Shown: positions 11,892 to 49,546 of the stretch, piece after piece | Layout of the letters: the number at the start of each line of letters is the position of its first letter | How positions within the stretch are numbered: the stretch's first letter is position 1 | NCBI GenBank assembly: GCA_018648645.1 | Contig: JABGQS010000008.1 | Span: 1-64,000 of the forward strand | From: Clostridia bacterium | Lineage (GTDB): Bacteria; Bacillota; Clostridia; Christensenellales; SZUA-584 | DNA length: 64,000 nt | Direction: 5' to 3' | Position numbers and translations under genes: made by a program | Notes under the pieces: generated by a model | Database searches by the model: none | Told to the model about the DNA's origin: nothing | The model's input: only the letters and a program-made list of their open reading frames with translations

Positions 11892-13085
11892 ATGAAGATA
11901 CTTCACACATCCGACTGGCACATCGGGCACGCGCTCTACGGCAAAAAACGAAACGACGAACACTCTGCGTTTCTTAATTGGCTGACCGAGCAGATTGCCT
12001 CGCGCGATATCGACGCCCTTGTCGTGTCGGGCGACATTTTTGACACGGGCTCACCCGGAGGAGCCGCAGAGCAGCTCTATTTCGACTTTCTGACATCCAT
12101 TATCAAAACAAATTGCAAAACAGTGGTTATCGTTGCCGGCAATCACGACTCCCCGCGGCGCTTGCAAGCACCTGCCGCCCTGCTGAAGAAATTGCATATT
12201 CACGTTATCGGCATCCCGTCAGCGCCGGCCGATCACGTAATTGAACTTAAGGACAGCGATGATAACATTGGCGCGCTGTGTTGCGCCGTTCCATATCTTC
12301 GCAAGAACGATATGGTGCGCATTGAAGATGATAACATCTCCACCGACGAGAAAATTATACTCGCAACAAAGCAGTTTTACAGCGATGTTGCAGCTGCCGC
12401 AAAACAGAAAAATCCCGATGTGCCAATCATCGCGACAGGGCATCTGTTTGCGCAAGGCGCGACAACAAGCGAGGGTGACGGTGTGCGCGAGCTTTACGTA
12501 GGCAGCCTCGGTCATGTGGGTGCAGATGTTTTTCCTGAAGAGATAGACTACGTTGCGCTCGGACATATACACAGCAAGCAAACGGTGTCGGGCAACGAGC
12601 GTATCAGATACAGCGGCTCTCCGCTCTGCATGAGCTTTTCAGAGATCGGCAAACCAAAGTACGTGCTGGAAATAGACACTCTTGATGGCATAAGTGTCGA
12701 TAAAATCGAAGTGCCTGCTTTCCGACAAATGAAAGCGATTTCGGGCGACTACGACGAAATTATATCAGCGCTTGGCGCACTTTCCGGCGATGTTTGGGTA
12801 GAAGTGACATACACCGGCAGCGAGCTTAGATCCTCGCTCTCCTTCGATATAAACGAAGCAGTAAGGGGCAGCGACATCAGCGTGCTTAGCATTCGCAACA
12901 AGGCAATAATCGACAGCATCATAGGCGCAACGCAGATATCACAGACACTCGAATCAATGAAGGTGGCTGACGTATTCCTGCGGTGCATGGACGACAACGA
13001 AATATCCGGAAGCCGCCGCGAGCATATGACCGCCGACTTCAACGAAATTGTGCGCGAAGTGCAGGAGCGTGACTTATGCGAATAG
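11892..13085 (+). CDS. sbcD: Exonuclease SbcD (Mre11-type nuclease subunit)
   Basis: The 397-residue metallophosphoesterase has the metal-binding motifs in order: DWHIGH near residue 8, VVSGDIFDTG, VAGNHDSPRRL, ATGHLF and ALGHIH. It is the nuclease partner of SbcC and removes DNA hairpins and protein-blocked ends during replication and repair. GGGGG precedes the ATG. Its last 10 bases overlap sbcC, the usual coupled arrangement of this complex. Confidence 0.95.
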   Translation: MKILHTSDWHIGHALYGKKRNDEHSAFLNWLTEQIASRDIDALVVSGDIFDTGSPGGAAEQLYFDFLTSIIKTNCKTVVIVAGNHDSPRRLQAPAALLKKLHIHVIGIPSAPADHVIELKDSDDNIGALCCAVPYLRKNDMVRIEDDNISTDEKIILATKQFYSDVAAAAKQKNPDVPIIATGHLFAQGATTSEGDGVRELYVGSLGHVGADVFPEEIDYVALGHIHSKQTVSGNERIRYSGSPLCMSFSEIGKPKYVLEIDTLDGISVDKIEVPAFRQMKAISGDYDEIISALGALSGDVWVEVTYTGSELRSSLSFDINEAVRGSDISVLSIRNKAIIDSIIGATQISQTLESMKVADVFLRCMDDNEISGSRREHMTADFNEIVREVQERDLCE

Positions 13086-16009
13086 AGAAAGTGGTAGTGC
13101 AAAATATCAATTCGCTGTATGGTCGTTTTACAATCGACTTCACAGACCCAGCATACTCCGAAGGTCTTTTTGCAATCGTCGGGCCATCGGGCTCAGGCAA
13201 AAGCAGCGTGCTCGATGCCATGTGCCTCGCGCTATATGGGCGAACTCCGCGCATAACCGTCAGCGATATGCACGACGAGACGATGAGCCAGAACACCGAT
13301 ATATGCGTCGCAGAGGTCGTGTTCGTGTCGGGCGAGAAACGATACAGAAGCACATTCGAGCACAGGCGAACAAAACGGAGTGCCAAGCCTTTTATGTCGC
13401 CAAAAAATGAGCTTTTTGAGTTTGAAGCAGATGGCACACAAACGACGCTCTCAGACAATTCGACAGAAGCAAAGCGCAAAGTAACTGATATCGTCGGGCT
13501 TGATTACGACCAGTTCACGCGCTCGGTGATGCTTGCACAGTTCAAGTTTGCCGAGTTCTTGAGCGCGAACTCAACTCAGCGCGCAGAGATTTTAGAGCAG
13601 GTTTCGGGTACAGACATATATCGGCGCATATCAATGGCGGTTTTCAATAAGCAAAAATTTTATGCAACTGCACTGGATGAGATTCGCATCAAAAGAGAGA
13701 CGATCAACGTGCTGGTGCCAGCTGAGGTTAAGCAAATCGAAGCTGAGTTGACAAGCATAGACGCAGCAGTTAGCGGCTTTGAAGCGCTCAAAGATAAGGT
13801 TGATGAAAGTTTGTCAACACTTACCCAGTCAGACAAATACAAAACTGCGCTTGCAGAGTTTGAAGCACACAAGCAAAAAGTTGTGCAGAACGTACTCGAG
13901 AAGAGCAAGGTTTTTGACGAAGCGGCAGACGAAGAGAAAAAGATAAAGCTGCAGAGTAAAGCGCTGCAAAAAACGTTGGTATCTGTAAGAAAACTTGATC
14001 TCAACATCTCGGCAGCAAACAAAGAAATTGGTAGGTTGAGGAGCGATTCTGAAACCGCCGACAAAGACATAAAATCGCAGAAAAAAATCATCCTGCAAAT
14101 ACTTACAAGACACCTGCCGAGTGCAGACAACAACGAGCTGAAAAGAATATACGAAGCGGACAACGAAGCGGACATCATAGCAAAGCACATCAGCGCTGCA
14201 CTCAAAATAAAGGAAGATAAGCAGAGCAGTCTGCGTGCAGAGATAAACAAAACACTTCAGAGCAAAGACGAAACGCATTGGCGTAATTTGCAGGAGGAAT
14301 TGGAGCGAGCGCTGCCGCTATTGCAGGCAAAGCATGCCAAGACCTCTGCGGAGCAAGCTCTTAAAAAGCTGCGTAAAAGCCTGACAGCGCTGCAGGCAGA
14401 GGAAAAGCAAATTGATAAGCAGATTGCCGATAACCAAGAGAAGTTCCTGCTTGCCAAGCTGACCGAAAAATATGCGGATGAGAGAAGCAAGCTAAATGAC
14501 GGACAACCTTGCCCGCTGTGCGGCGCGTTGCAGCACCCAAGCGCTCACGAGCACCTAGACACTTCTTTCGTGAAAGCGGCAGAGCAAGAAAAGCAACAGC
14601 TAGAAAACAAGAAGACAAGCATATCCGAGGACATCACAAGAATCGCAGTTGATGTAAAAGCGCAGGTCAATATAATCGCCGATAACGAGGATATATTGAA
14701 GGGCAAGAATGCTTTGCTGGAAAAGCTGGAAACCGCGCAACCTCAGGATGTGCAGAAGCAGACAGAGCATATCAAACAGCTGCTAAGCCAAAGCAGACAG
14801 CTTAGTGAGCAGTTGGCTTTGGCAGCAGAAAGTGTTCTTAATTTGACAAGGCAGCTAAACGAAGTGGACAAAGATGTCGCTGACATCAAGCACGCGAAAT
14901 CTGTAATCGGCGATTTAGAGCTGCGCAAAGCAAATACCGAGAAGGAGCTGGCTGTAGCGGGCAAAGAAAAAACGACGCTGTCAGAGCAGCGCGTGCAAAT
15001 GTTTGGCGACAAGGACGCTGATTCTGAAGAGACAGCCGCAAATTCAGCACTTGTCACAGCGGAGCAAATCACGCGTGCCGAGCGCAAACGCATGGAGGCT
15101 GCAAAAGCAGACGAAGTCAGGAACAAGACCGACATAGACCGCAGCAAGACGCAGATAGAAGCGCTTGCTAAAAAGCTCGACCAATCATACAGCGATGTTT
15201 TAGGCGGAGCTGCGGTCGTCACTACGCTCGAGCCAACCGGGCAAACAGACTTATACGATACGGTGCAAAAGCAGAATGCAGCACTAATGCAAACCGCGCA
15301 GCAAAGCCGAGAAACCATGACAGATTTAACCGGCAGTCTTTTCGCGCTGGCAACAAAGCTGAAGGAGAGCAAAGGTGAGGCGCGCAACAAACTGCGTGAG
15401 AACGATAGCAAGAAAAAGCAGATTAAGGAGCTTGATGTGCAGGAGAAGGACGACGGCAAGCAGTTCAAACGCTGGAACGAGCTTAACGCCTTGATCGGCT
15501 CGGCAGACGGCATAAAGTTCAGCCGAATCGCGCAAGGCATCACGTTCGATGTGCTGCTCCAATACGCCAACGAGAGCTTGAAGAAAATGAGCGACCGCTA
15601 CATCCTAGCGCGCGACAGCTCAAAGAACGCCAGCCCTCTAGAAATCAACGTTGTCGACAACTACCAAGCCGGCGACATCCGCCCCGTCAGCAACCTGTCG
15701 GGCGGCGAAAGCTTTGTGGTGTCCATGGCACTGGCACTCGGGCTGTCTGAGATGTCTTCGGGCAAAACGCAAATCGACTCGCTGTTCATCGACGAAGGCT
15801 TCGCGTCCCTCGACGAGAACTACCTAGAGCTCGCGCTTCAAACGCTGTCCACCCTCGGCAACCGCGAGAACAAACTCATCGGCGTAATCTCGCACGTCAA
15901 AGAATTAAAAGAGCGCATCGACACGCAGATAGAAGTATCGGCACTCACGGGCGGACGCAGTACGCTGACCGGTCCCGGTGTGAGTATAGACGAAAGATAT
16001 ATCTTGTAA
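13076..16009 (+). CDS. sbcC: Exonuclease SbcC (Rad50-type ATPase subunit)
   Basis: The 977-residue SMC-like ATPase has a Walker A GPSGSGKSS near residue 41 and a Q-loop (AQFKFAEFL). Long coiled coils flank a zinc hook CPLC at residue ~478, and the C-terminal ABC signature LSGGESFVVSMALALGLSE is followed by Walker B FIDEGFASLD. It assembles with SbcD into the hairpin nuclease. The ATG lies inside the end of sbcD. Length is typical for Firmicutes SbcC. Confidence 0.95.
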   Translation: MRIEKVVVQNINSLYGRFTIDFTDPAYSEGLFAIVGPSGSGKSSVLDAMCLALYGRTPRITVSDMHDETMSQNTDICVAEVVFVSGEKRYRSTFEHRRTKRSAKPFMSPKNELFEFEADGTQTTLSDNSTEAKRKVTDIVGLDYDQFTRSVMLAQFKFAEFLSANSTQRAEILEQVSGTDIYRRISMAVFNKQKFYATALDEIRIKRETINVLVPAEVKQIEAELTSIDAAVSGFEALKDKVDESLSTLTQSDKYKTALAEFEAHKQKVVQNVLEKSKVFDEAADEEKKIKLQSKALQKTLVSVRKLDLNISAANKEIGRLRSDSETADKDIKSQKKIILQILTRHLPSADNNELKRIYEADNEADIIAKHISAALKIKEDKQSSLRAEINKTLQSKDETHWRNLQEELERALPLLQAKHAKTSAEQALKKLRKSLTALQAEEKQIDKQIADNQEKFLLAKLTEKYADERSKLNDGQPCPLCGALQHPSAHEHLDTSFVKAAEQEKQQLENKKTSISEDITRIAVDVKAQVNIIADNEDILKGKNALLEKLETAQPQDVQKQTEHIKQLLSQSRQLSEQLALAAESVLNLTRQLNEVDKDVADIKHAKSVIGDLELRKANTEKELAVAGKEKTTLSEQRVQMFGDKDADSEETAANSALVTAEQITRAERKRMEAAKADEVRNKTDIDRSKTQIEALAKKLDQSYSDVLGGAAVVTTLEPTGQTDLYDTVQKQNAALMQTAQQSRETMTDLTGSLFALATKLKESKGEARNKLRENDSKKKQIKELDVQEKDDGKQFKRWNELNALIGSADGIKFSRIAQGITFDVLLQYANESLKKMSDRYILARDSSKNASPLEINVVDNYQAGDIRPVSNLSGGESFVVSMALALGLSEMSSGKTQIDSLFIDEGFASLDENYLELALQTLSTLGNRENKLIGVISHVKELKERIDTQIEVSALTGGRSTLTGPGVSIDERYIL

Positions 16010-37739: not shown

Positions 37740-38042
37740 ATGATTGTTGCGAAAGTGTGCGGCAGTATTGTCAGTACAAACAAATCGGATAGAATGCAGG
37801 GTATGAAGATATTGCTCGTTAGGCAGGTGGACATTCCTTCGCAAAAGCAGGTGGGTGAACCCAAAGTGGCGATAGATACGATTGGCGCCGGGGAGGGTGA
37901 AATTGTGCTTTGCGTTGCTGGGAGCAGCTCGCGCCAGACGAGCAAGACGTTTGAAAAGCCTGTTGATTTGGCTATTATCGGGATTGTGGATTCGATTGAT
38001 TTGATTGGCAGCCGCGTGTTTGAGAAGTACGAGAGCGAGTAG
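37740..38042 (+). CDS. BMC pentameric vertex protein 1 (EutN/CcmL family)
   Basis: The 100-residue protein has the EutN/CcmL pattern: VCGSIVSTNKSDRMQGMKILLVRQVD, VAIDTIGAGEGEIVLCVAGSSSRQT and DLAIIGIVDSID. Such pentamers close the vertices of icosahedral microcompartment shells. I take the ATG at 37740 (GCGAGG upstream) over the GTG at 37680, since family members begin here. It is the first gene of the shell cluster, 15 bases before a second, divergent pentamer gene. Confidence 0.93.
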   Translation: MIVAKVCGSIVSTNKSDRMQGMKILLVRQVDIPSQKQVGEPKVAIDTIGAGEGEIVLCVAGSSSRQTSKTFEKPVDLAIIGIVDSIDLIGSRVFEKYESE

Positions 38043-38333: not shown

Positions 38334-38609
38334 ATGGTTAAAGAAGCACTCGGAATGGTTGAGACGAAAGGTCTCGTTGGCGCAGTAGAAGCAGCAGACG
38401 CAATGGTTAAAGCAGCAAACGTTAAGCTGCTTGGCAAAGAGAAAATTGGCAGCGGGCTTGTGACCGTTATGGTTAGAGGCGATGTTGGCGCAGTGAAAGC
38501 AAGCGTGGATGCAGGCGCAGCAGCTGCGAAGAGAGTTGGAGAGCTTGTATCTGTGCACGTTATTCCGCGTCCGCACGACGATGTAGAGTCGATATTACCC
38601 GGACAATAG
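38334..38609 (+). CDS. BMC hexameric shell protein (PduA/EutM type)
   Basis: The 91-residue BMC-domain protein begins [21 protein letters not shown]. It carries K26, which PduA uses at hexamer edges, and pore loop KIGSG with S40 at the pore, identical in that loop to PduA. This suggests a small, polar pore that passes hydroxylated metabolites. It is the only BMC-domain protein in the window. AAGGAG precedes the ATG by 7 bases. High expression is expected from its position and start site. Confidence 0.96.
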
Positions 38610-38664: not shown

Positions 38665-38714
38665 TGCGAAAAACGACTTTAGAATCACAAAGAGACGGAT
38701 GAGGTGAGATGACA

Positions 38715-39467
38715 ATGGATTTAGATGCACTTATTGCGCAAATTACGGATGAAGTGTGCTCAAGAATTGAAAACGAGGGCACAGCGCCGATTGGCAGCAG
38801 CGATGTCGGCAACGATGTTGGCAACGATGTTGGCAACAATGTTGCGGGGGCTATTGAGTATACCGTTATGGATCCGAGCGCAAAAATTGAAGATATTGCG
38901 CGCATGTGCAGCACTGCCAAGCAGAAAGGCTTTGCAAGTGTTTGTGTTGCGCAATGGTTTGTGGCGTATGCCAAGGAGAAGCTTAGCGGCACGGACGTGA
39001 AAGTGTGCACCTCAGTGGGGCTGCCGGGCGGCAGAAGCGCGACTGCGGCAAAGTATGCCGAAGTGAAGGAAGCTGTGAAAAACGGCGCGGACGAGGTTGA
39101 GATACCGATTAATATGACGCTGCTGGAAGCGGGCGACCTCGAAGAGCTGAAAAACGACCTCGAAGAGGCGATGGTGCCTGCTGCGGACAAAGCGGTTGTA
39201 AAAGCCGTTATTGAGCTGGGCGGCGTATCGGCGGACAAAAGAACAGCCGCGATTGCGGAAGCGAAACAATGTAACGCCGATTACGTTGTGATTAGCAGAA
39301 TACTAAGCGGCGGGGCGCACGATATGGATGAAGTGAGCAAAGTGACCGAGCTGTGTGCAGGAAGCATAAAAGTGAAAGCGGTCGGACAAATTTTGGACGG
39401 AAGCGCAGCGGGGGCAATGATTTCGCTTGGCGTGGATAGAATCGGGACGAGCGCTGCAGGACTATAA
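38715..39467 (+). CDS. DeoC-like aldolase homologue with N-terminal encapsulation peptide and no Schiff-base Lys
   Basis: The 250-residue protein begins with an amphipathic helix MDLDALIAQITDEVCSRI, the pattern of BMC encapsulation peptides, then a Gly/Asn/Asp/Val repeat linker (~27-43). A deoxyribose-phosphate aldolase barrel follows from residue ~47. DERA uses a Lys in VKTSTGF for the Schiff base; here the aligned stretch is ADYVVISRIL, with V192 in its place. K221 keeps the second Lys (KVKAVG), and E129 replaces the catalytic Asp. Normal DERA chemistry is therefore doubtful. GAGGTG lies 8 bases before the ATG at 38715; ATG 38709 is too close. Confidence 0.88.
   Translation: MDLDALIAQITDEVCSRIENEGTAPIGSSDVGNDVGNDVGNNVAGAIEYTVMDPSAKIEDIARMCSTAKQKGFASVCVAQWFVAYAKEKLSGTDVKVCTSVGLPGGRSATAAKYAEVKEAVKNGADEVEIPINMTLLEAGDLEELKNDLEEAMVPAADKAVVKAVIELGGVSADKRTAAIAEAKQCNADYVVISRILSGGAHDMDEVSKVTELCAGSIKVKAVGQILDGSAAGAMISLGVDRIGTSAAGL
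38808..38843 (+). repeat. 12-base tandem repeat in the DeoC-like linker
   Basis: Three units GGCAACGATGTT (38808-38819, 38820-38831 and GGCAACAATGTT at 38832-38843) follow a related GGCAGCAGCGATGTC. They encode GNDV repeats and keep the frame. Confidence 0.85.
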
Positions 39468-39515: not shown

Positions 39516-40229
39516 ATGTTGGCGTATGTAACCACAAAAGATCGCATACTAAACTACATAAAAAAGAATAAGGTCAACATCGGCGAGAAACTGCCACCCG
39601 AAAGCGAGCTGTGCAAGATACTCGGTATAAGTCGGCTGACGCTGCGCGAAGCCATTAACGCGCTGAAAAACGAGGGTATGATCAACTCGATTCAAGGCAA
39701 GGGTACGTTTGTGTCGGGCAACATCGACAACATTGCCAACACTCTGAACAGTAACCTTGGCATAAGCGAAATGATTGTTTCGAGCGGACACAAGCCGGGA
39801 GTGAATCACTTTGAGAAAGAGCTTGTGAAAGCGGACAAAAACATTGCAAAGAAAATCGGCGTGGAGGAAGGCGCGGATGTTCTTGTGCTAAAGCGTATAA
39901 GAACTGCGGACGACAAGGCGGTTGTGTATTCGATGGACTATTTTGTGCCGAAGATGACGGCGCAGTTTCTTGGGGTGACTGACGAGAACGTTTCGATATA
40001 CAGCTTTATGGAGGATGTTTGCGGTATTAAAATTGGCTCGGGCATTGCTGAAATTCTGCCTGTTGTTGCAGAAAAATGGCTGGCAGAGATGCTGGAGATT
40101 GAAGTCGGCGAGCCTGCACTGATGATAAAGCAAGTGGTGACGGATATTCATGGTGAGCCGCTGTTGTACGCAGAGGAGTATCTGCGCTCGGACAGCTTTA
40201 AGCTGCTCATCAACAGAAGGAGGTCGTAG
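39516..40229 (+). CDS. GntR family regulator (HutC/UTRA type)
   Basis: The 237-residue protein has an N-terminal winged helix (GEKLPPESELCKILGISRLTLREAI). The C-terminal UTRA effector domain runs from about residue 80 and ends in YAEEYLRSDSFKLLI. HutC-type regulators sense sugar phosphates or amino-sugar derivatives. It sits inside the BMC operon and most likely controls the dyads at 37563-37623. AAGGGGAG precedes the ATG at 39516. Its last codons contain the AGGAGG used by the next gene. Confidence 0.9.
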   Translation: MLAYVTTKDRILNYIKKNKVNIGEKLPPESELCKILGISRLTLREAINALKNEGMINSIQGKGTFVSGNIDNIANTLNSNLGISEMIVSSGHKPGVNHFEKELVKADKNIAKKIGVEEGADVLVLKRIRTADDKAVVYSMDYFVPKMTAQFLGVTDENVSIYSFMEDVCGIKIGSGIAEILPVVAEKWLAEMLEIEVGEPALMIKQVVTDIHGEPLLYAEEYLRSDSFKLLINRRRS

Positions 40230-40231
40230 TT

Positions 40232-41296
40232 TTGAAAGCGATCGTGAAATATGGGTATGGAAAATTTGAAACGGAAATCAGAGACGTGCCTGTGCCGACT
40301 ATCGGCGATGATGACGTGCTGCTGGAAGTAAAAGCGGCCGGTGTTTGTGGCTCTGACATTGCGTTTGACGACGGCGGACACGAGAACCTTTTGAATCCGC
40401 CGGTTATATTGGGACATGAATTTTCGGGAGTTGTCAGCAAAATCGGCAGGAACGTGACTGAATGGAAGGTTGGCGATAGGGTTGTGTCCGACAACACGGG
40501 CAAAGTGTGCGGCAAGTGCTATGCGTGCGGTGTGGCGGATTATCTATCGTGCCCGGAACGGCTGGGGCTTGGATACGGCATGGACGGCGGGTTTGCAAAG
40601 TATGTGCGTATTCCCGGAGAAACGCTGAAAGTGTTTCCGAACAGCTTGATGAGCATACCGCAGGAGCTTTCGTTTGAAGAAGCGGCGATTATCGACCCTT
40701 GCAGCAACGCGTATATGGCGGTTGTGCAAGAGTCGAAGTTTATGCCGGGAGATTATGGCGCTGTGTTTGGCGTTGGTGCGCTGGGGCAGTTTTCGATACA
40801 GGCACTGCGTGCGGCTGGTGCGGCGAAGATAATCGCGATTGGGCTGAGTGAAGACAAGAAGGAGCGCTTTGACCTGGCAAAGTACAACGGCGCGACTGAT
40901 ATCGTGGTTGCCGACGAAGTTGACACGATTGAAGAAGTTAATAGGCTGACAAACGGTGAGGGCGTCGGTTTGGTGGTCGATTGCGCGGGAGTCGCGGTTG
41001 TGTTGAAGCAGTCGATTGAGATTGTGCGCACAGCCGGAGAAATTGTAAAAATCGGGTATGATGAGAAGCCTGTTGGGTTTTCGCTCGACCCGTTGATAGA
41101 TAAAGCAGTTAGTTTGAAAGGACATTTTGGGTATAACTGGCTTTCGTGGCGCGGCGTTATGAACTTGGCGGTTGCGGGCAAAATCGACCTTAAGTCGATG
41201 ATATCGCACAAGATGAAGCTAAGCGAGTTTCGAGCGGCGTTTGATTTGGTAAGGGATAGAAAAGCGATAAAGATTGTGTTATACCCCGAAGATTAA
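40232..41296 (+). CDS. Zinc-dependent alcohol/polyol dehydrogenase (MDR family)
   Basis: The 354-residue medium-chain dehydrogenase has catalytic-zinc ligands in AGVCGSD and GHEFSG, and a structural-zinc loop with exact C-x2-C-x2-C-x7-C spacing (CGKCYACGVADYLSC). The NAD-binding GVGALGQFSIQALRAAG is present. It resembles sorbitol, threonine and galactitol dehydrogenases, so it likely oxidises a secondary hydroxyl of a sugar alcohol or sugar acid. The TTG start at 40232 follows AGGAGG with two bases after the gntR stop. No encapsulation peptide is visible. Confidence 0.9.
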   Translation: MKAIVKYGYGKFETEIRDVPVPTIGDDDVLLEVKAAGVCGSDIAFDDGGHENLLNPPVILGHEFSGVVSKIGRNVTEWKVGDRVVSDNTGKVCGKCYACGVADYLSCPERLGLGYGMDGGFAKYVRIPGETLKVFPNSLMSIPQELSFEEAAIIDPCSNAYMAVVQESKFMPGDYGAVFGVGALGQFSIQALRAAGAAKIIAIGLSEDKKERFDLAKYNGATDIVVADEVDTIEEVNRLTNGEGVGLVVDCAGVAVVLKQSIEIVRTAGEIVKIGYDEKPVGFSLDPLIDKAVSLKGHFGYNWLSWRGVMNLAVAGKIDLKSMISHKMKLSEFRAAFDLVRDRKAIKIVLYPED

Positions 41297-41332: not shown

Positions 41333-42367
41333 TTGAAGATATACATATGTGCAGATTTTAGCCAGGATGGAATTGAGCTGCTGAAAGTGGCAGGTCACGA
41401 TGTTCGTTTAGGAGGCTGGGGATTCACCAGCGAAATACTTGAAGAAGACGCGCTGATTGCCGATATCGGCGACGCTGATGTTTTGGTGGTCGGGTATGAA
41501 AAGGTGACCCGCAAGGTGCTGGAAAACACGAGCTTGAAGATAATATCTTCGATTCGCGGTGGTCCGCGCGCCAACATTGATGTTGACTATGCAACGAGCA
41601 TCGGCATTCCTGTGTTTTTCACGTTTGGAAGAGAAGCGCTGCCTGTTGCCGACTTTACAATGGGGCAGATACTTGCAGTGACACGAAAGATTGCGCGGGC
41701 AGACAGGGAGCTGCGAGGCGGATTGTTTACTGCACCCGACGGGGATTACGGAAGCGAAGGCGACGTGATTTGGGACATGAGCCCTGAGGGACCTTGGCAG
41801 TCGCGCAAGGGCATAGAGCTTGAAGGAAAAACGATTGGGCTGATTGGATTTGGCACGGTTGGGCAGCAGGTTGCCGACAGGTGCAAAGGGTTTGGAATGC
41901 GCGTGATTGCGTACGATCCGTATCAGGATGAGGAGATAATCAAGGAACACCATGCGCAAAGAGTGAAGCTGCCCGAGCTGCTAAAATCGTCGCATATCAT
42001 ATCTGTGCATGCCAAGGTGAACGAAAAGAACGCCGGCATGCTTGGCAAGGAAGAGTTTGAGATGATGCGAGACGGTGTGTTTTTCGTAAACAACGCTAGA
42101 GCGGGCATTGTGGTAGAAGAAGTGTTGCGCGATAATCTGCGGAGCGGCAAGCTAGGCGGGCTGGCGCTGGACGTGTTTCACAACGAGCCAATAAAAGAGA
42201 ACGACGAGTATTTTAATTATGATAACGTGATATTGACACCGCACATTGCGGGGTCGGGAACCGACGTTATTTATCTTCAATCGGTCATGATAGCCAACGA
42301 TTTGCTCCTCTACATTGCGGGCGGGCGACCAAAACCGATTGTGAACCCAGAGGTGTTTGACAACTAA
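41333..42367 (+). CDS. D-isomer-specific 2-hydroxyacid dehydrogenase
   Basis: The 344-residue NAD enzyme has GLIGFGTVGQQVADRCKGFG, catalytic Arg in VNNARAG, Glu in HNEPIKEND and His in LTPHIAGSG. It is a different branch from the dehydrogenase at 28894. In the BMC operon it could oxidise or reduce a 2-hydroxy or 2-keto sugar acid. GGAGG lies 7 bases before the TTG start. No targeting helix is seen at either end. Confidence 0.9.
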   Translation: MKIYICADFSQDGIELLKVAGHDVRLGGWGFTSEILEEDALIADIGDADVLVVGYEKVTRKVLENTSLKIISSIRGGPRANIDVDYATSIGIPVFFTFGREALPVADFTMGQILAVTRKIARADRELRGGLFTAPDGDYGSEGDVIWDMSPEGPWQSRKGIELEGKTIGLIGFGTVGQQVADRCKGFGMRVIAYDPYQDEEIIKEHHAQRVKLPELLKSSHIISVHAKVNEKNAGMLGKEEFEMMRDGVFFVNNARAGIVVEEVLRDNLRSGKLGGLALDVFHNEPIKENDEYFNYDNVILTPHIAGSGTDVIYLQSVMIANDLLLYIAGGRPKPIVNPEVFDN

Positions 42368-42386: not shown

Positions 42387-43463
42387 ATGGCATATGTAAA
42401 GACTTTGGATATACTGGAAAAATGCGCACAGGAAAAGTTTGCGGTGGGTGCGTTTAACTTAAACGGGCTGGATCAGATACCTGCGCTTGTGAAGCGGGCA
42501 GAGGCGCTTGGTGCGCCGATACTCGTGACAGAGCCGGGCGTTATTGAGCCGTATGTGGATTTTGAGCAGATGGCGGCGGTGACGTATCTCGCGGCGAAAA
42601 ACGTGAATGTGCCTGTTGGGCTGCACCTGAGCCACGGCGGAGATTTGGAGACTGTGGAGCACGCTGTAAAAGCAGGGTTTACGTCTGTGATGTATGACGG
42701 CAGCAAGCTGGAGTACGAAGACAATGTGCGCAACACGGCAGAGGCCGTGAAAATGGGGCACAGCTATGGCGTTGCTGTTGAGGGCGAGCTTGGTGCATTG
42801 CCGGGCGCATCCGAAGGCGGCGCAGCAGCGGAAACAGCAGTGGACACAATGACCGACCCTGCGCTTGCAAAGGATTATGTGCAAAGAACGGGCGTCGATA
42901 TATTGGCGGTGTCTATAGGCAACGCGCATGGATTGTACAAAGGAAAGCCGAGTCTCGATTTTGCGCGGCTAGAGCAGATATATTACGGGCTGATGAGCCA
43001 GAACGTGTACTTAACGCTGCACGGCGGCACAGGAATACCAGAGGATCATATCAAACGCGCGATGGGAATGGGCATCGTGAAGGTTTGTATATACACCGAT
43101 ATGTGTGTGGAAGGCAAGAAAAACGCCAACGCTTATGTAGCGGAGAAACCCGAATATCAAGGCAATTACGATATATGTGATTTGATACGCACAATAAACG
43201 ACGGATTTTTGGATGCGGCAGAAGTTTGCATGAAGATGTTTAGCAGCACCGGGCGCGTGCATAAAAGCGACAGCTATGCGGCGGCGCAAATTGGCGGGGG
43301 TAGCGTATCGGTTGCGTCGGCAAGCAACGCAGCAGCACCTAAGGAAAGCTCGGGCGGACCTGTGGAGAACTGGGACGTGGGACCGAAAACGCCGTCTGAA
43401 CCGACGCTGCGAGAGCAGAGCAAGCAGGCGATAGATAAGATTTATTGGCACAAAAACGTTTAG
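42387..43463 (+). CDS. Class II aldolase homologue (GatY/FbaA family) with altered active site and C-terminal tail
   Basis: The 358-residue protein is a class II fructose/tagatose-bisphosphate aldolase barrel. The zinc ligands are kept (H83, E134, H181, H212), but the catalytic Asp82 of LHLDHG is S82 (LHLSHG). The phosphate-site Asn of KVNVAT is C234 (KVCIYT), with Y236. These changes argue against ordinary ketose-bisphosphate cleavage. After the barrel ends (~residue 291) comes a 65-residue tail: an Ala/Ser/Gly linker, then a possible short helix LREQSKQAIDKIYW that may target it to the shell. A GTAAAGGAAG ribosome site precedes the ATG. Confidence 0.88.
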   Translation: MAYVKTLDILEKCAQEKFAVGAFNLNGLDQIPALVKRAEALGAPILVTEPGVIEPYVDFEQMAAVTYLAAKNVNVPVGLHLSHGGDLETVEHAVKAGFTSVMYDGSKLEYEDNVRNTAEAVKMGHSYGVAVEGELGALPGASEGGAAAETAVDTMTDPALAKDYVQRTGVDILAVSIGNAHGLYKGKPSLDFARLEQIYYGLMSQNVYLTLHGGTGIPEDHIKRAMGMGIVKVCIYTDMCVEGKKNANAYVAEKPEYQGNYDICDLIRTINDGFLDAAEVCMKMFSSTGRVHKSDSYAAAQIGGGSVSVASASNAAAPKESSGGPVENWDVGPKTPSEPTLREQSKQAIDKIYWHKNV

Positions 43464-43476
43464 TTGGAGGCAGACA

Positions 43477-44985
43477 TTGCGGTTGATGGGTGTGGACATG
43501 GGAACCTCGGGCTGTAAAGCCGTGGTGTTCGATGAAAAATTCAATATCGTGTGCGATGCTTACCGCGAGTATGAGCTGAGCTTCCCGGGAGAAGGGCTGC
43601 TGGAGCTTGACCCGAACGTTGTTTGGGACAACATCAAGGCGGTCATCAGCGAAGCGAACGGCAAGACGGACAAGCCTGTGAATGCGCTTGCGATATCTGC
43701 AATCGGCGATGTGATTTTGCCGCTGAGGTACGACGGAACGCCGGTGCGCAAAGCGATTATCGACTTTGACCCAAGAGGCACGGAGCAGATAAAGAAGTTT
43801 GTCAGCGATTTTGGAGAAGGAGCGTTCTTTCATATAACGGGAATGCCGCCGCTGTTTATTGGAAGCCTAGCAAAAATACTTTGGATACAGACAAACGAGC
43901 CGCAGATTTACGACAAGGTGCAAAGATGGGGCACATTTGAAGATTTTATTGTGCAGAAGCTGGGGCGAGCTCCAAGCGTTAGCTATAGCGAAGCGGCAAG
44001 GACGATGTTGTTTGACATCAGAGACAAAGCGTGGAGCAAGCAGGTGTTGGACAAAATACCTATGGATGAGCGCATGCTTCCAAAGGTTGTGCCATCGGGA
44101 ACAAAGCTTGGCAAAGTGCAAGCCGGGTTGGCAAAGAAGCTTGGGTTCAGCAAGTCGCCGGAGATTGTGAGCGGCGGACACGACATGGTGTGTGCGGCGA
44201 TTGGCGCCGGGCTGGATGAGAGGAAGAGTGATACGGCGGTTAATATCGCCGGGACGATAGAAGGCATTGTGGTGGCAATGGACAAGGCAAACACGGGCGC
44301 AGCGATGCTTGATAACTTGTTTCCGTGTTATCCCGGGTACGACGGGTACGTGACGTTTAGCGTAAATTTGACGGCAGGGTGTATATTGCGCTGGTATCGC
44401 GATGTGATTGCGAGTGACACTTACGAGCTGTGCAAGATGAGCGGCGAGGACGTATTTGAAAAGCTGCTTGAAGCGCTGGAAGCGGATAAGCCCAGTGAGA
44501 TGATATTTTTGCCGCACTTTTCGGGGAGCGGAAACCCGCACTTTGACCCGAACGCTAAAGGGACGATATATGGGCTGACACTCAGCAGCACGAGGGACGA
44601 TATTGTGCAGGCGATGATTGAAGGGCTGTGCTACGAGATAAAGCTGCACAGCGATGCGCTGCGCAAAGCAGGGATTGACATCAGTGCTATTCGGTCGGTT
44701 GGCGGCGGTGCGAAGATAGACAAGCAGCTGCAATTAAAAGCGAACATAACTGGGCTGATTGTAATTAAAGGAAACGTGAGTGAAAGCTCGGCGCTTGGCG
44801 CAGCGGCTATGGCGGGCGTGGCTATGGGGCAGATAAAGCACCCGAGCGAAGCGTTTGCGACAGCTGCCAAGAAAGAAAAAAGGTTTGTGCCACAGAGCGA
44901 AACCAAGAAGAGTTTTGAGAAGGCGTATGCAAAGTATGCCGCGCTCTTTAATAAAATTCATGATTTTGAGTCGCAGAATAATTGA
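43477..44985 (+). CDS. FGGY family carbohydrate kinase (xylulokinase-like)
   Basis: The 502-residue ATP-dependent sugar kinase starts GVDMGTSGCKAVVFD. It has the FGGY signature GSLAKILWIQTNE, catalytic D236 in GGHDMVCAA, the ATP-site NIAGT and the C-terminal GGGAKIDKQLQLKANITG. It probably phosphorylates the sugar brought in by the ABC importer encoded next. GGAGG lies 6 bases before the TTG start. The specific sugar cannot be told. Confidence 0.92.
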   Translation: MRLMGVDMGTSGCKAVVFDEKFNIVCDAYREYELSFPGEGLLELDPNVVWDNIKAVISEANGKTDKPVNALAISAIGDVILPLRYDGTPVRKAIIDFDPRGTEQIKKFVSDFGEGAFFHITGMPPLFIGSLAKILWIQTNEPQIYDKVQRWGTFEDFIVQKLGRAPSVSYSEAARTMLFDIRDKAWSKQVLDKIPMDERMLPKVVPSGTKLGKVQAGLAKKLGFSKSPEIVSGGHDMVCAAIGAGLDERKSDTAVNIAGTIEGIVVAMDKANTGAAMLDNLFPCYPGYDGYVTFSVNLTAGCILRWYRDVIASDTYELCKMSGEDVFEKLLEALEADKPSEMIFLPHFSGSGNPHFDPNAKGTIYGLTLSSTRDDIVQAMIEGLCYEIKLHSDALRKAGIDISAIRSVGGGAKIDKQLQLKANITGLIVIKGNVSESSALGAAAMAGVAMGQIKHPSEAFATAAKKEKRFVPQSETKKSFEKAYAKYAALFNKIHDFESQNN

Positions 44986-44999
44986 AAGCAGGTGGGGTT

Positions 45000-46496
45000 T
45001 TGAGCGAGTTTATACTTGAAATGAAAAACATTGGGAAGTCTTTTTCCGGCGTGAGTGTGCTGAGAAACATTAACTTAGGATTGGTAAAGGGAGAAGTTCA
45101 TGCGCTGCTGGGAGAAAACGGCGCAGGCAAATCTACTTTGATAAAGATAATAAGCGGGTTTCATCCGACCGAGAAAACGGCGCAGATTATTCTTGACGGT
45201 AAACGAGTAGCGTTTAAGAAACCGAAGGACGCGCTGGACGCTTCGATACATACGATATATCAAGAGCTGACGCTTTGCCCCGACATGACGGTTGCGGAAA
45301 ACATTGTGATTGACAAGCAGGACAGGTTTAAGGGTGTGCTGCAGCACAAAAAGCAATACAATAAAATCGCGCGAGATGTGCTGAACAGGATGGAGCAGAA
45401 AGATATCAGAGTAAACGCGATGGTGAGGACGCTCTCGATTGCGCAGCAGCAGGTTGTCGAGATAGCAAAGGCGATTGCCAGCGATGCAAAGGTTATTCTG
45501 ATGGACGAGCCGACCTCGTCGATATCCCAAGAGGACGCGGACGAGCTGATGAATATTATTCGGCATCTTAGAGACCAAGGCGTTACTATAATTTATATAT
45601 CGCACAGGCTGCACGAGATTGACGGAATCGCGGACAGGATCTCTGTGCTGCGCGACGGCGATTTGGTGGGGACGGTGAACAACAAGGACGTTACCGAAAA
45701 TGATTTGATAAACATGATGGTTGGCAGGCAGCTAAAAGACATGTTCCCAAAAAGGGACATTAAGCTTGGCGATGTTGTGCTTAGCGTAAAGGATTTGGAA
45801 AGTGAAAAAACATTTAAGAACGTTTCGTTTGAAGTGCACAAGGGAGAGATTTTCGGCATCGGCGGGCTGGTTGGTGCAAAGCGTACCGAGGTTCTAGAAG
45901 CGCTGTATGGGCTGAGAAAAATTACTGGCGGGCAGATTGAGCTTAACGGGAAGAAATTTGTGCCGAGGAACCCGATAAACGCTATGAAGCACAAAATTGC
46001 CTTTGTTACCGAGGACCGAAAGAAATCGGGACTGGTGTTGTGTTTGTCTGTTATGGAAAACCTGAACATGATTAACGCACAGGAAAAAACGCCGCTGGGA
46101 ACGCTTAGCTGGAAAAAGCTGATGGGCAAGGCGAAGAAGCAGCAGGACAGCTTGGATATAAGGATATTTACGCTAAAGCAGATTGTGGATACGCTGTCGG
46201 GCGGGAACCAGCAGAAGGTGGCTCTTGGCAAGTGGATGGAGTTTAAACCGGACATCTTGCTGTTTGATGAACCGACGCGCGGCATCGATATTGGTGCGAA
46301 AACGGAGATATATAACATAATGGGCGAGCTTGCTGCGGCGGGTACGGCGATTATCATGGTGAGCTCTGAGCTGCCCGAGCTGATCAGCATGGCAGACAAC
46401 ATTATGGTTATGAGAGAAGGCGTTATGAAGGGCGTGCTTAACCGCAGCGAGGCAACGCAGGAAGCTGTTATGACACTCGCGGCGCTTAAGGACTGA
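45000..46496 (+). CDS. Sugar ABC transporter, double ATP-binding protein (RbsA type)
   Basis: The protein has two ABC modules. The first has Walker A GENGAGKST, a degenerate signature LSIAQQQ and Walker B ILMDEPTSS. The second has a degenerate A loop (GGLVGAKRTE), signature LSGGNQQKVALGK and Walker B LLFDEPTRGIDIGAK. This asymmetry is normal for RbsA/MglA. AGGTGGGG lies just upstream of the TTG at 45000; an in-frame TTG at 44982 overlaps the kinase stop but lacks a ribosome site. It energises uptake with the next two genes. Confidence 0.93.
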   Translation: MSEFILEMKNIGKSFSGVSVLRNINLGLVKGEVHALLGENGAGKSTLIKIISGFHPTEKTAQIILDGKRVAFKKPKDALDASIHTIYQELTLCPDMTVAENIVIDKQDRFKGVLQHKKQYNKIARDVLNRMEQKDIRVNAMVRTLSIAQQQVVEIAKAIASDAKVILMDEPTSSISQEDADELMNIIRHLRDQGVTIIYISHRLHEIDGIADRISVLRDGDLVGTVNNKDVTENDLINMMVGRQLKDMFPKRDIKLGDVVLSVKDLESEKTFKNVSFEVHKGEIFGIGGLVGAKRTEVLEALYGLRKITGGQIELNGKKFVPRNPINAMKHKIAFVTEDRKKSGLVLCLSVMENLNMINAQEKTPLGTLSWKKLMGKAKKQQDSLDIRIFTLKQIVDTLSGGNQQKVALGKWMEFKPDILLFDEPTRGIDIGAKTEIYNIMGELAAAGTAIIMVSSELPELISMADNIMVMREGVMKGVLNRSEATQEAVMTLAALKD

Positions 46497-46543
46497 TCGA
46501 ATAGCGAATATAAAAAATCTAGATATAAATTGGAGGAAAGATA

Positions 46544-47527
46544 ATGCAGGCAAAAAGCGGTGTGAAAAAGCGAGGCGGAATTACTGTTGGTCAGTTCTTT
46601 ATAAGGTTTAGGACGATTATTATCCTTATCGTGATAATGGGTATTTTTACAGCACTTAATGATGTGTTCATTAATCCGATAAATCTATTGAATATGCTGA
46701 AGAGACAGAGCTTTGTGTTTATTGTGGGCTTTGGAATGACGTTTGTTATCACGCTGGCCGGACTTGATTTGTCTGTTGGTGGTGTGGCGGCAATTACAGG
46801 CGTTGGGTTCTCCATGCTTGTAAAGGGCGGGCTGATGCCGATTGTACCTGCGCTGCTGATTATGCTTGTTGTGGCACTGGCGCTTGGATTCTTTAACGGA
46901 TTTGTATCCGTAAAGGGAAAAATTGAGCCGTTCTTGGTGACACTCGCAACGATGAATATATTTAGAGGACTGGCGCTGATACTCAGCGAGGGCAGACCAA
47001 CACCGATTGTTGTTGAAGGGTTTGCAGATTTCTTTGGAAACGGAAAAATAGGCGGGGTTTTCCCGACGCCGGTTGTATTTGTAATTGTTCTGTTTGCAGC
47101 AACGTGGTTCCTATACAAAAAAACGAAATTCGGATTCTATGTGCGGTGCATCGGTGGAAACCAAGAAGCCGCTAGGGTTGCCGGAATTAAAGTCAATTTT
47201 ATAAAGATTACGGCATACACTCTAAATGCGTTCTATGCATTTGTAGCAGGTCTTATACTGGCGGCGCTGTTTAACTCGGGCAATCCGGACCTCGGAAAAG
47301 ATTTACCGTTGGATGCGATTTCGGGCGTTATACTTGGCGGAACCGCGATTTCGGGCGGTAATGGGCGTATATGGGGCACATTTGGTGGTTGCTTGATTAT
47401 CGCCGCGCTTAGCAGCGGAATGTCGCTACTCAGTTTGCCGTATTCGTATCAGATTGTGGTTAAGGGCGCAGTTATCATATTGGCGATGCTGCTTGACAAC
47501 TATCTGAAAGCAAGAAGTAATGAATAG
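46544..47527 (+). CDS. Sugar ABC transporter permease (RbsC type)
   Basis: The 327-residue protein has eight to ten membrane helices and the RbsC/MglC motifs TLAGLDLSVGGVAAITG, RGLALILSEGRPTP and SGVILGGTAISGGNGRIWGTFGG. It forms the channel with the ATPase encoded just upstream. GGAGG lies 7 bases before the ATG. The homodimer is the usual form, and only one permease gene is present. Confidence 0.94.
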   Translation: MQAKSGVKKRGGITVGQFFIRFRTIIILIVIMGIFTALNDVFINPINLLNMLKRQSFVFIVGFGMTFVITLAGLDLSVGGVAAITGVGFSMLVKGGLMPIVPALLIMLVVALALGFFNGFVSVKGKIEPFLVTLATMNIFRGLALILSEGRPTPIVVEGFADFFGNGKIGGVFPTPVVFVIVLFAATWFLYKKTKFGFYVRCIGGNQEAARVAGIKVNFIKITAYTLNAFYAFVAGLILAALFNSGNPDLGKDLPLDAISGVILGGTAISGGNGRIWGTFGGCLIIAALSSGMSLLSLPYSYQIVVKGAVIILAMLLDNYLKARSNE

Positions 47528-47573
47528 ATTTGGCTATTGCTTTAGCCAATAAAAATAATAGGAGGAAAAGAAG

Positions 47574-48818
47574 ATGAAGAAAGTGGTTAGATTGTTGGTT
47601 CTCGTATTGGTTGTCTTACTGGCCTTTGCGGCATGTAACCCAGCAGTAACACCCGAGGAAGTTCAAGATGTTGTTGAAGACGTAGTTGAAGACGTAGTGG
47701 ACGATGCAGAGGATGTTGTCGAAGATGTCGTTGAAGACGTTGAAGACGTAGTCGCAATGCATACAAATGCTGCAGACTTTGACTATCAAGAAGCAGAGGG
47801 CACAGTGTTTGACCTCAACGGATATTACAATCCATTGGGCGTTGAATGTGATGTTACGATTAGAGCTACGGGCGGCACGGTTAACGTTCCTGACGGAATG
47901 ACCGACGCGTTCCCGACGGCAAACGAAGCGTACACAATTGGATTCTCTGTTTACTACACGGTTGATGAAGTTGGTTCCATGATTCTTGATACTATGGAAG
48001 CTGCTGCATTAGAAGCCGGCGTAACGCTGCTCGTTAATGACGCGAACTATGACCAGAACGCGCAGAACACAGCAATTGAGCAGTGGATACTCCAGGATGT
48101 TGACGGAGTTATTTTGGCTCCTTGCGACTTCTATGGCGTAAAAGAGTCTCTTGACGCTTTGAAAGAAGCCGGAATTCCGGTTGTTACACTAAATCCGCCG
48201 TTGGCAGGAGAAGCTGATGCAGTAACAAGCTTTGACTGTGTTGTTCAGGGACAGCAGGCAGGCGAAATGCTTGAAGCTGCAATCATGGATGCAGGCATAG
48301 AGATGAAGGGCACAATCGTATGGCAGAACCTTCCTTTCGTTCATCCAAACGCTGCAACACGTGCGCTTGGATTCTTGCAGGTATTCGAAAAGTATCCTGA
48401 CGTAGAGTTGATTGAACTGACGGGTATTTCTCCGGAAGACCATTACACTGCGTTTGAAGGCGCTTTGGCTGCGCATCCTGACATGATTGGTGCTTGGGGA
48501 CTGTACAGCTCTGCAACAATCGGCATGATGAATGCTAAACTTGCAGCAGACAGCGACGTTCTGTTAAGCTCTGTCGACAACGACAAGCTGATCCTCAAGG
48601 GCATCTATGACGGAGACATCGTCGGTAGCGCGTGCTATTCTTCGATATGGCCGGCAAGATGGACAATGAGCCAGATGATTAATCTGTTGAACGGTGTGGA
48701 AATACCGGGATTGCTCTATGGTGCAAACATGGCTGTTACACCGGACAATGTAGAAGAAGCGTTTGAGCTTTACTATCCGGGACAGACTCTTGCAGGATTT
48801 ATGGCAGGAACTGAGTAG
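47574..48818 (+). CDS. Sugar-binding lipoprotein of the ABC transporter (RbsB-like)
   Basis: The 414-residue protein has a signal peptide with lipobox LAFAAC (Cys ~21). An acidic Val-Val-Glu-Asp repeat spacer (~residues 30-60) follows, then a type I periplasmic-binding domain (~120-410; IGFSVYYTVDEVGSMILDTM, GVILAPCDFYGVKESLDAL). It captures the substrate at the cell surface. Upstream AGGAGG is strong, so it is probably the most translated transporter gene. The acidic spacer is unusual for the family. Confidence 0.92.
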   Translation: MKKVVRLLVLVLVVLLAFAACNPAVTPEEVQDVVEDVVEDVVDDAEDVVEDVVEDVEDVVAMHTNAADFDYQEAEGTVFDLNGYYNPLGVECDVTIRATGGTVNVPDGMTDAFPTANEAYTIGFSVYYTVDEVGSMILDTMEAAALEAGVTLLVNDANYDQNAQNTAIEQWILQDVDGVILAPCDFYGVKESLDALKEAGIPVVTLNPPLAGEADAVTSFDCVVQGQQAGEMLEAAIMDAGIEMKGTIVWQNLPFVHPNAATRALGFLQVFEKYPDVELIELTGISPEDHYTAFEGALAAHPDMIGAWGLYSSATIGMMNAKLAADSDVLLSSVDNDKLILKGIYDGDIVGSACYSSIWPARWTMSQMINLLNGVEIPGLLYGANMAVTPDNVEEAFELYYPGQTLAGFMAGTE

Positions 48819-48871
48819 TACAAGGCAACAATAGTAGCGACATAATAGTAAACTAGTTGAAAGAGGTTATA

Positions 48872-49546
48872 ATGATGAAAGAGATTCCAAAGCTTATCGT
48901 GATGTTGACCCACAATGACAAGACTGTGAAAGACGCGATTAAAGTATTCAAAGCCTGCAAGGACACCCAGGCGCAGTATTGGGGATTCAAGGAAGCCGGA
49001 CTGAAAAAGAGCAAGATGAAGCGTCTTGTGAAAATGATGAAGGCTGCGGGCAAGACAACGTTTCTTGAAGTTGTGGACTATACGGAGCAGGGCTGTATTG
49101 AAGGCGCGAAGGTTGGTATTGAATGCGGTTTTGATATCCTGATGGGTACGATGTACTTTGACTCTGTCAGAGACATTGTGAAGGAAGCCGGGATGATGTA
49201 TATGCCGTTTGTCGGGGAAATTACCGGCAGACCTAGTATACTCGGCGGCACGATCGAGGGCATGGTTGGCGAGGCCAATTCGCTGATTGAAAAAGGCGTT
49301 GATGGGTTTGACCTGCTTGCGTATCGGTTTACCGGAGACCCTGAAGAGCTGATTAAACGGTTTGTTGATGAGGTTAACCTGCCGGTGTGTATTGCCGGAA
49401 GCATCAAGAACTTTGAGAGGCTCGATTTGATGAAGGATGTTTCGCCGTGGACGTTTACAATCGGAAGTGCATTCTTTGAAAAGGATTTTGGAGATCTTTC
49501 ATTTGCTGACCAAATCGAAGTAGTTTGCGACTACATGAAAAAGTAA
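48872..49546 (+). CDS. Uncharacterised TIM-barrel protein
   Basis: The 224-residue protein is unrecognised by name. Eight candidate beta strands can be traced (KLIVML, AQYWGF, TTFLEVV, DILMGT, MYMPFVG, GFDLLAY, PVCIAGS, FTIGSAFF). The late PVCIAGSI and TIGSAFF positions suit a phosphate-binding barrel such as those of HisA, NanE or KGPDC. A sugar-phosphate isomerase or epimerase role is a guess. AAGAGG precedes the ATG pair at 48872/48875. It closes the transporter operon and is followed by a terminator. Confidence 0.7.
   Translation: MMKEIPKLIVMLTHNDKTVKDAIKVFKACKDTQAQYWGFKEAGLKKSKMKRLVKMMKAAGKTTFLEVVDYTEQGCIEGAKVGIECGFDILMGTMYFDSVRDIVKEAGMMYMPFVGEITGRPSILGGTIEGMVGEANSLIEKGVDGFDLLAYRFTGDPEELIKRFVDEVNLPVCIAGSIKNFERLDLMKDVSPWTFTIGSAFFEKDFGDLSFADQIEVVCDYMKK

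Follow-up and report, generated by a model that had tools for sequence, protein, structure and literature searches.

A DeoC homologue that appears to have lost deoxyribose-phosphate aldolase chemistry and may serve as a scaffold in a BMC of Clostridia-type genomes

DeoC is taken as the mark of one of the most widespread BMC types, and a locus that contains it is assigned a function in DNA or sugar-phosphate catabolism. The window analysed here (a stretch of 64,000 nucleotides from a Clostridia genome) holds a DeoC-family gene with BMC-H and EutN genes directly upstream, and the question that it raises is whether the encoded protein is an aldolase and, if it is not, what part it plays in the organelle. 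An earlier note on this DNA had judged it to be probably not a normal aldolase. The genes concerned are:

37740..38042, + strand: BMC-P (EutN/CcmL) shell vertex protein 1 (PF03319, 94.5 bits; 57% identity to the EutN of the core locus on contig C8)
38058..38321, + strand: BMC-P (EutN/CcmL) shell protein 2, with a divergent C-terminal part (PF03319, 33.1 bits, residues 1-61 only)
38334..38609, + strand: BMC-H hexameric shell protein (PF00936, 103.8 bits; 92% identity to the C8 BMC-H)
38715..39467, + strand: degenerate DeoC (pseudo-aldolase), whole gene (TIGR00126, 134.5 bits, cut-off 117.3; catalytic residues replaced)

The DeoC gene lies in an open frame of the forward strand (38709-39467) whose first ATG gives a protein of 252 amino acids, P0001. 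The Shine-Dalgarno-like stretch upstream, GAGGTGAG at 38700-38707, is too near 38709, so that a start at 38715 is likelier; residues are numbered here as in P0001, two higher than in the earlier note (192, 129 and 221 become 194, 131 and 223). The protein scores above the cut-off of NCBIfam TIGR00126 ("deoxyribose-phosphate aldolase") and, because of this, would be named DERA by automatic annotation; PF01791, with 30.7 bits, likewise indicates a DeoC-family gene in the locus.

In E. coli DERA the covalent bond is made by Lys167, and proton transfer involves Asp102 and Lys201 (PMC8403123). From alignments to PDB and genomic homologues, the corresponding codons in the window are:

39099..39101, + strand: Glu131 (GAG), at the E. 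coli catalytic Asp102
39288..39290, + strand: Val194 (GTG), at the E. coli Schiff-base Lys167
39375..39377, + strand: Lys223 (AAA), at E. coli Lys201; kept in the window protein and lost in the other four members of its clade

The closest solved relatives are DERAs, and all five pairwise alignments to them agree on the placement of Val194, Glu131 and Lys223, as do the alignments to genomic homologues. A glutamine also replaces one glycine of the beta-7 GG motif, and a further lysine, Lys165, is present. The AlphaFold model (29 homologues, pLDDT 91) contains all eight strands of the (beta/alpha)8 barrel, with V194 in beta-6 (192-196) and E131 in beta-4 (129-133), and the top Foldseek matches of this model are DERAs only (8qps: target TM 0.91, rmsd 1.3 A). 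An intact barrel with tag helix and linker is also predicted for a clade member that lacks all three catalytic residues. The earlier note had read a valine at the Schiff-base lysine and a glutamate at the catalytic aspartate, and had proposed an alignment against Lys167, Asp102 and Lys201 of E. coli DeoC together with a structure prediction; the alignment finds V, E and K there, the model puts the first two on beta-6 and beta-4, and both substitutions are thereby borne out. The second lysine, which the note had described as retained, is indeed in place, but only in this basal member of the clade. An error of alignment register was ruled out by the five PDB alignments, the genome alignments and the model, and an assembly error was rejected because the same loss is common to four other genomes, one of them (G125) a single 2.77 Mb contig. 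Despite its DERA sequence family, the window protein is without two of the catalytic residues (Lys167 and Asp102) and should therefore not be named a DERA.

The other four proteins came from searches of related genomes and an alignment-based search of GTDB contigs. The resulting clade consists of the window protein (genome G000) and those of G125 (locus L064), G063 (JAFWMS010000017, L072/L085), CAJOKM010000005 (L084) and JAAWCJ010000029 (L086); all hosts are Clostridia-type genomes, the other four being described as gut-type bacteria. None of the five has an equivalent of Lys167 (the other members carry only V, M or L) or of Asp102 (where those four have nothing but T, L or I), and the Lys201 equivalent survives in one of five, the window protein (A or G elsewhere), while the Asp102/Lys167/Lys201 triad is kept in 38 of the 38 other complete DeoC homologues examined. 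The earlier suggestion to look for conservation among homologues is thus answered by a loss that is constant and a replacement residue that varies between members, and the judgement that this is not a normal aldolase now rests on a conserved clade of five. TIGR00126 scores of the other four (65.9-73.8 bits) fall below the cut-off of 117.3. In the tree the five proteins group with 100/99 support, the window protein being basal and long branches being flagged; common motifs and gene order independently point to a common origin. The clade is rare: a sample of 396 genomes from the order had it in three, and samples from the class (391 genomes) and the phylum (398) added no further member. A scan of 84,980 genomes with the single protein found nothing, and the clade-alignment search that followed gave three loci, one of them G063 again. 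High-scoring matches in G374 and G430 were ruled out as clade members, the lysine being retained.

Judged from the sequence, the loss of DERA chemistry in the degenerate DeoC is well supported. It is very improbable that class I aldolase activity persists in the window protein, with the Schiff base on Lys223 or Lys165: both lysines are there, the score exceeds the TIGR00126 equivalog cut-off, and a residual or altered activity is conceivable for this protein alone, but the clade conserves neither of them, Asp102 has been replaced as well, and it is Lys167 that makes the covalent bond in E. coli DERA (PMC8403123).

Has the gene, then, simply lost its use? The reading frames are open in five of five members. 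For the only usable pair, L085 against L084, the dN/dS of the degenerate DeoC is 0.103 at a dS of 1.26, which is near saturation; the class II aldolase has 0.040 and AldDH 0.070 (all NG86 values). The protein is thus under purifying selection and less constrained than its neighbours, as read from a dS near saturation. Its identity to the window protein across the four other loci is about 33-41%, against 56-75% for the enzymes of the same gene block, and it is the fastest-diverging protein of that block. Such fast divergence and the loss of otherwise invariant residues would suit a product that is decaying because nothing depends on it, a reading that is hard to credit when every frame is open, dN/dS is about 0.10, tag and barrel are retained and the operon position is fixed.

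What selection has preserved is less easily read. Thirty-five alignment columns are invariant across all five members. Four residues (W83, F84, M54 and L105) are switched or newly fixed in the clade, W83, L105 and M54 relative to ordinary DeoC, and five residues that surround the strands of the former active site (W83, F84, P133, N135 and M136) do not vary within it. These five could have a ligand-binding or catalytic role, which would count against a scaffold. The invariant columns, the switched and fixed W83, L105 and M54 and the purifying selection would all be expected of a barrel with a different enzymatic or ligand-binding activity, exercised through newly conserved residues (C-[VI]-x-[QE]-WFV, LPGG, AKYAE and [IV]P-x-NM) and with no Schiff base. 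However, no conserved acid/base or lysine has taken the place of the triad, the more derived members have an eroded and shortened beta-7/beta-8 half, Gly227 and Arg244 included, and the protein diverges faster than every operon enzyme; we consider such an activity a doubtful, minority possibility. Of the three readings that the earlier note had left open, a scaffold or a regulatory pseudoenzyme fits best, whereas the case for new chemistry in the same barrel suffers from the lack of a replacement catalytic Lys or Asp common to the clade and from the eroded C-terminal half.

The N-terminal extension of the protein has two parts:

38721..38774, + strand: N-terminal helix, putative encapsulation peptide (P0001 residues 5-22; AlphaFold pLDDT about 84-90; aligns with the N-terminal helices of other BMC-linked DeoCs)
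38778..38825, + strand: disordered linker with DVGN repeats (P0001 residues 24-39; pLDDT < 50)

A terminal helix followed by a disordered linker, encoded beside shell genes, is typical of an encapsulation peptide, and this one resembles the helix-and-linker signals by which BMC cargo is loaded. Its hydrophobic moment is not above that of shuffles (0.19 of them reach the window value); amphipathicity of the helix is significant in three clade members, and not in the window protein or L086. Oligomeric cargo that bears encapsulation peptides favours condensation (PMC12339742), and since such cargo is expected to condense better, even a tagged barrel that is catalytically dead would plausibly be of use.

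Downstream of the DeoC gene the window continues with:

39516..40229, + strand: GntR/UTRA regulator (PF00392, PF07702; 50-55% identity in the four other loci)
40232..41296, + strand: zinc alcohol/polyol dehydrogenase (PF08240/PF00107; 68-72% in the four other loci)
41333..42367, + strand: D-2-hydroxyacid dehydrogenase (PF02826; 74-75% in the four other loci)
42387..43463, + strand: class II ketose-bisphosphate-type aldolase with a C-terminal linker and conserved tail (PF01116, 244 bits; Ser82 at 42630-42632)
43477..44985, + strand: FGGY carbohydrate kinase (PF00370/PF02782; 56-58% in the four other loci)
44982..48818, + strand: sugar ABC importer (ORFs; ATPase 44982-46496, permease 46544-47527, binding protein 47574-48818; conserved in five of five loci)

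The degenerate DeoC heads this block in each of the five loci, and the order from GntR through the two dehydrogenases, the class II aldolase and the FGGY kinase to the ABC importer is the same; a second GntR copy is found elsewhere in two of the five. In the remaining four loci a full BMC core (AldDH, PduL and PduS) lies beside the block, and the core of the window genome is on contig C8. Next to the importer, at 48857-49546, lies the gene of a 229-residue protein that matches nothing in Pfam and, in NCBIfam, barrel enzymes only weakly; a 68% identical homologue of it is encoded beside the L086 locus.

The class II aldolase is itself unusual. In all five orthologues (56-62% identity to the window protein in the other loci) it reads HLSHG for the family's HLDHG, with Ser82 in place of Asp82, which we take to be catalytic, and KVCIYTD replaces the usual KIN motif (Asn to Cys), while the zinc-ligand histidines (SHG, NAHG and LHGG motifs) are present in five of five. 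Given Asp82Ser, the aldolase activity must itself be called putative, and the serine possibly reflects a new substrate, new chemistry or partner-dependent activity. After a linker the protein ends in a conserved tail, GPxYPSL...[FY]WxKN; an encapsulation peptide in this tail was considered and dropped, the hydrophobic moment giving it no support. Of 248 related genomes, three have a matching class II aldolase, and these are the three that have the degenerate DeoC. Such perfect co-occurrence and the conserved order of both genes could speak for a two-component aldolase, in which the DeoC pseudoenzyme is a subunit that regulates or completes the Ser82 enzyme and on which the conserved tail could dock; the tail could equally bind the shell, and we think such a two-component enzyme quite unlikely. 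A broader version, in which the dead barrel is an obligate scaffold or partner of a class II aldolase that lacks the canonical Asp, the two forming a two-protein aldolase in an undescribed BMC type, is unlikely as well, if a little less so.

We favour instead, with a probability of roughly one half, the explanation that the window DeoC is an encapsulated pseudo-aldolase that has been retained as scaffold or adaptor while the aldehyde is supplied by the class II aldolase; for the degenerate DeoC itself a scaffold is the role that we infer as most likely. The protein would descend from encapsulated DERA-type DeoC proteins and would have lost cleavage of deoxyribose-5-phosphate, and its tagged, probably oligomeric barrel would help to collect cargo or fix it to the shell, perhaps serving as adaptor for operon enzymes that have no tag, among them the class II aldolase. 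A sugar or polyol would enter through the ABC system; once the dehydrogenases had adjusted it and the FGGY kinase had phosphorylated it, the class II aldolase would split it to give an aldehyde, which AldDH, PduL and PduS of the BMC would then process (next to the block in four genomes, on C8 here). The case for the action of another aldolase is strongest in G063, where at E <= 1e-25 there is no other tagged DeoC and the sole other DeoC match is without the tag region; its BMC appears to be without an intact tagged DeoC.

The assembly of the window genome (2.67 Mb in 77 contigs) contains eight BMC domains, five EutN domains and six DeoCs with an alignable N-terminal helix: that of the window, one on C8, two on C9, and one each on C31 and C50. 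The N-terminal helix finds no match in a seventh DeoC, encoded on C23. The Asp/Lys/Lys triad is intact in the five other tagged copies. Contig C8 carries the main BMC core (PduL, AldDH, PduS and shell proteins) with an intact DeoC of its own, and the window locus, with two BMC-P genes, one BMC-H gene, the degenerate DeoC and the sugar operon, is on this account a satellite. The "signature cargo of this BMC" of the earlier note calls for qualification: the locus is one of several BMC loci in the genome, five other tagged DeoCs are intact and the main core lies on C8.

Compared with known systems, the window protein has the (beta/alpha)8 fold, the sequence family and the Lys201 equivalent of class I DeoC/DERA (TIGR00126; PDB 8qps, 6d33, 1jcl), and differs in its replaced Lys167 and Asp102, the Gln in the beta-7 GG motif and the N-terminal tag. 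Its locus shares with the SPU (sugar phosphate utilizing) BMCs (PMC4207490, PMC8217296) a tagged DeoC-family protein and, in related loci, AldDH, PduL and PduS; unlike them, it combines a catalytically degenerate DeoC with an operon-attached PF01116 class II aldolase and is without RpiB (PF02502). No RpiB was found in the window locus or beside the G125 and G063 loci, and the only one of the window genome is on contig C12, away from the BMC loci. A BMC enzyme homologue with a replaced catalytic residue has a precedent in GRM1 BMCs, where the second AldDH is catalytically dead and has been proposed as a scaffold or regulator (PMC4207490), although enzyme family and BMC type differ and the active GRM1 copy is in the same locus. 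In PVM, PVM-like and GRM5 BMCs (PMC8156839, PMC8217296) a class II aldolase also makes the aldehyde from a phosphorylated sugar, as it putatively does here; theirs is of the PF00596 fuculose-phosphate type, whereas ours belongs to PF01116, has Asp82Ser and shows no obvious encapsulation peptide. Neither the present operon nor a BMC with a fructose-bisphosphate-type aldolase and an encapsulation peptide was found in the literature searched, and we regard the BMC type as provisionally new, since the supplementary tables of the BMC catalogue lay outside that search.

Because a protein that passes the DERA cut-off has lost its catalytic residues, predictions of BMC function from the locus can be wrong; here the operon points to a different substrate. 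If the structural role is true, the protein would be a natural case of a cargo enzyme turned into a building part of an organelle, and active paralogues close to it, in the same genome, would allow direct comparison.

Some further features of these loci were observed. Contigs C8, C9, C31, C50 and C76 of the window genome carry core and satellite loci, each with a near-identical BMC-H (91-93% to that of the window) and a different tagged DeoC, and a sugar importer adjoins several of the BMC-H/tagged-DeoC loci of this genome. An iron-sulphur-like C-terminal motif, CxxCGxCxxxCP, occurs in intact tagged DeoCs at 12566-13396 and 7807-8676 of L030 (C9), 3993-4817 of L031 (C31) and 12353-13180 of L065. 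The BMC cores also encode a protein of 215-231 amino acids with a tag-like N-terminal helix and no Pfam match (9540-10187 of L029 on C8; 15665-16360 of L064).
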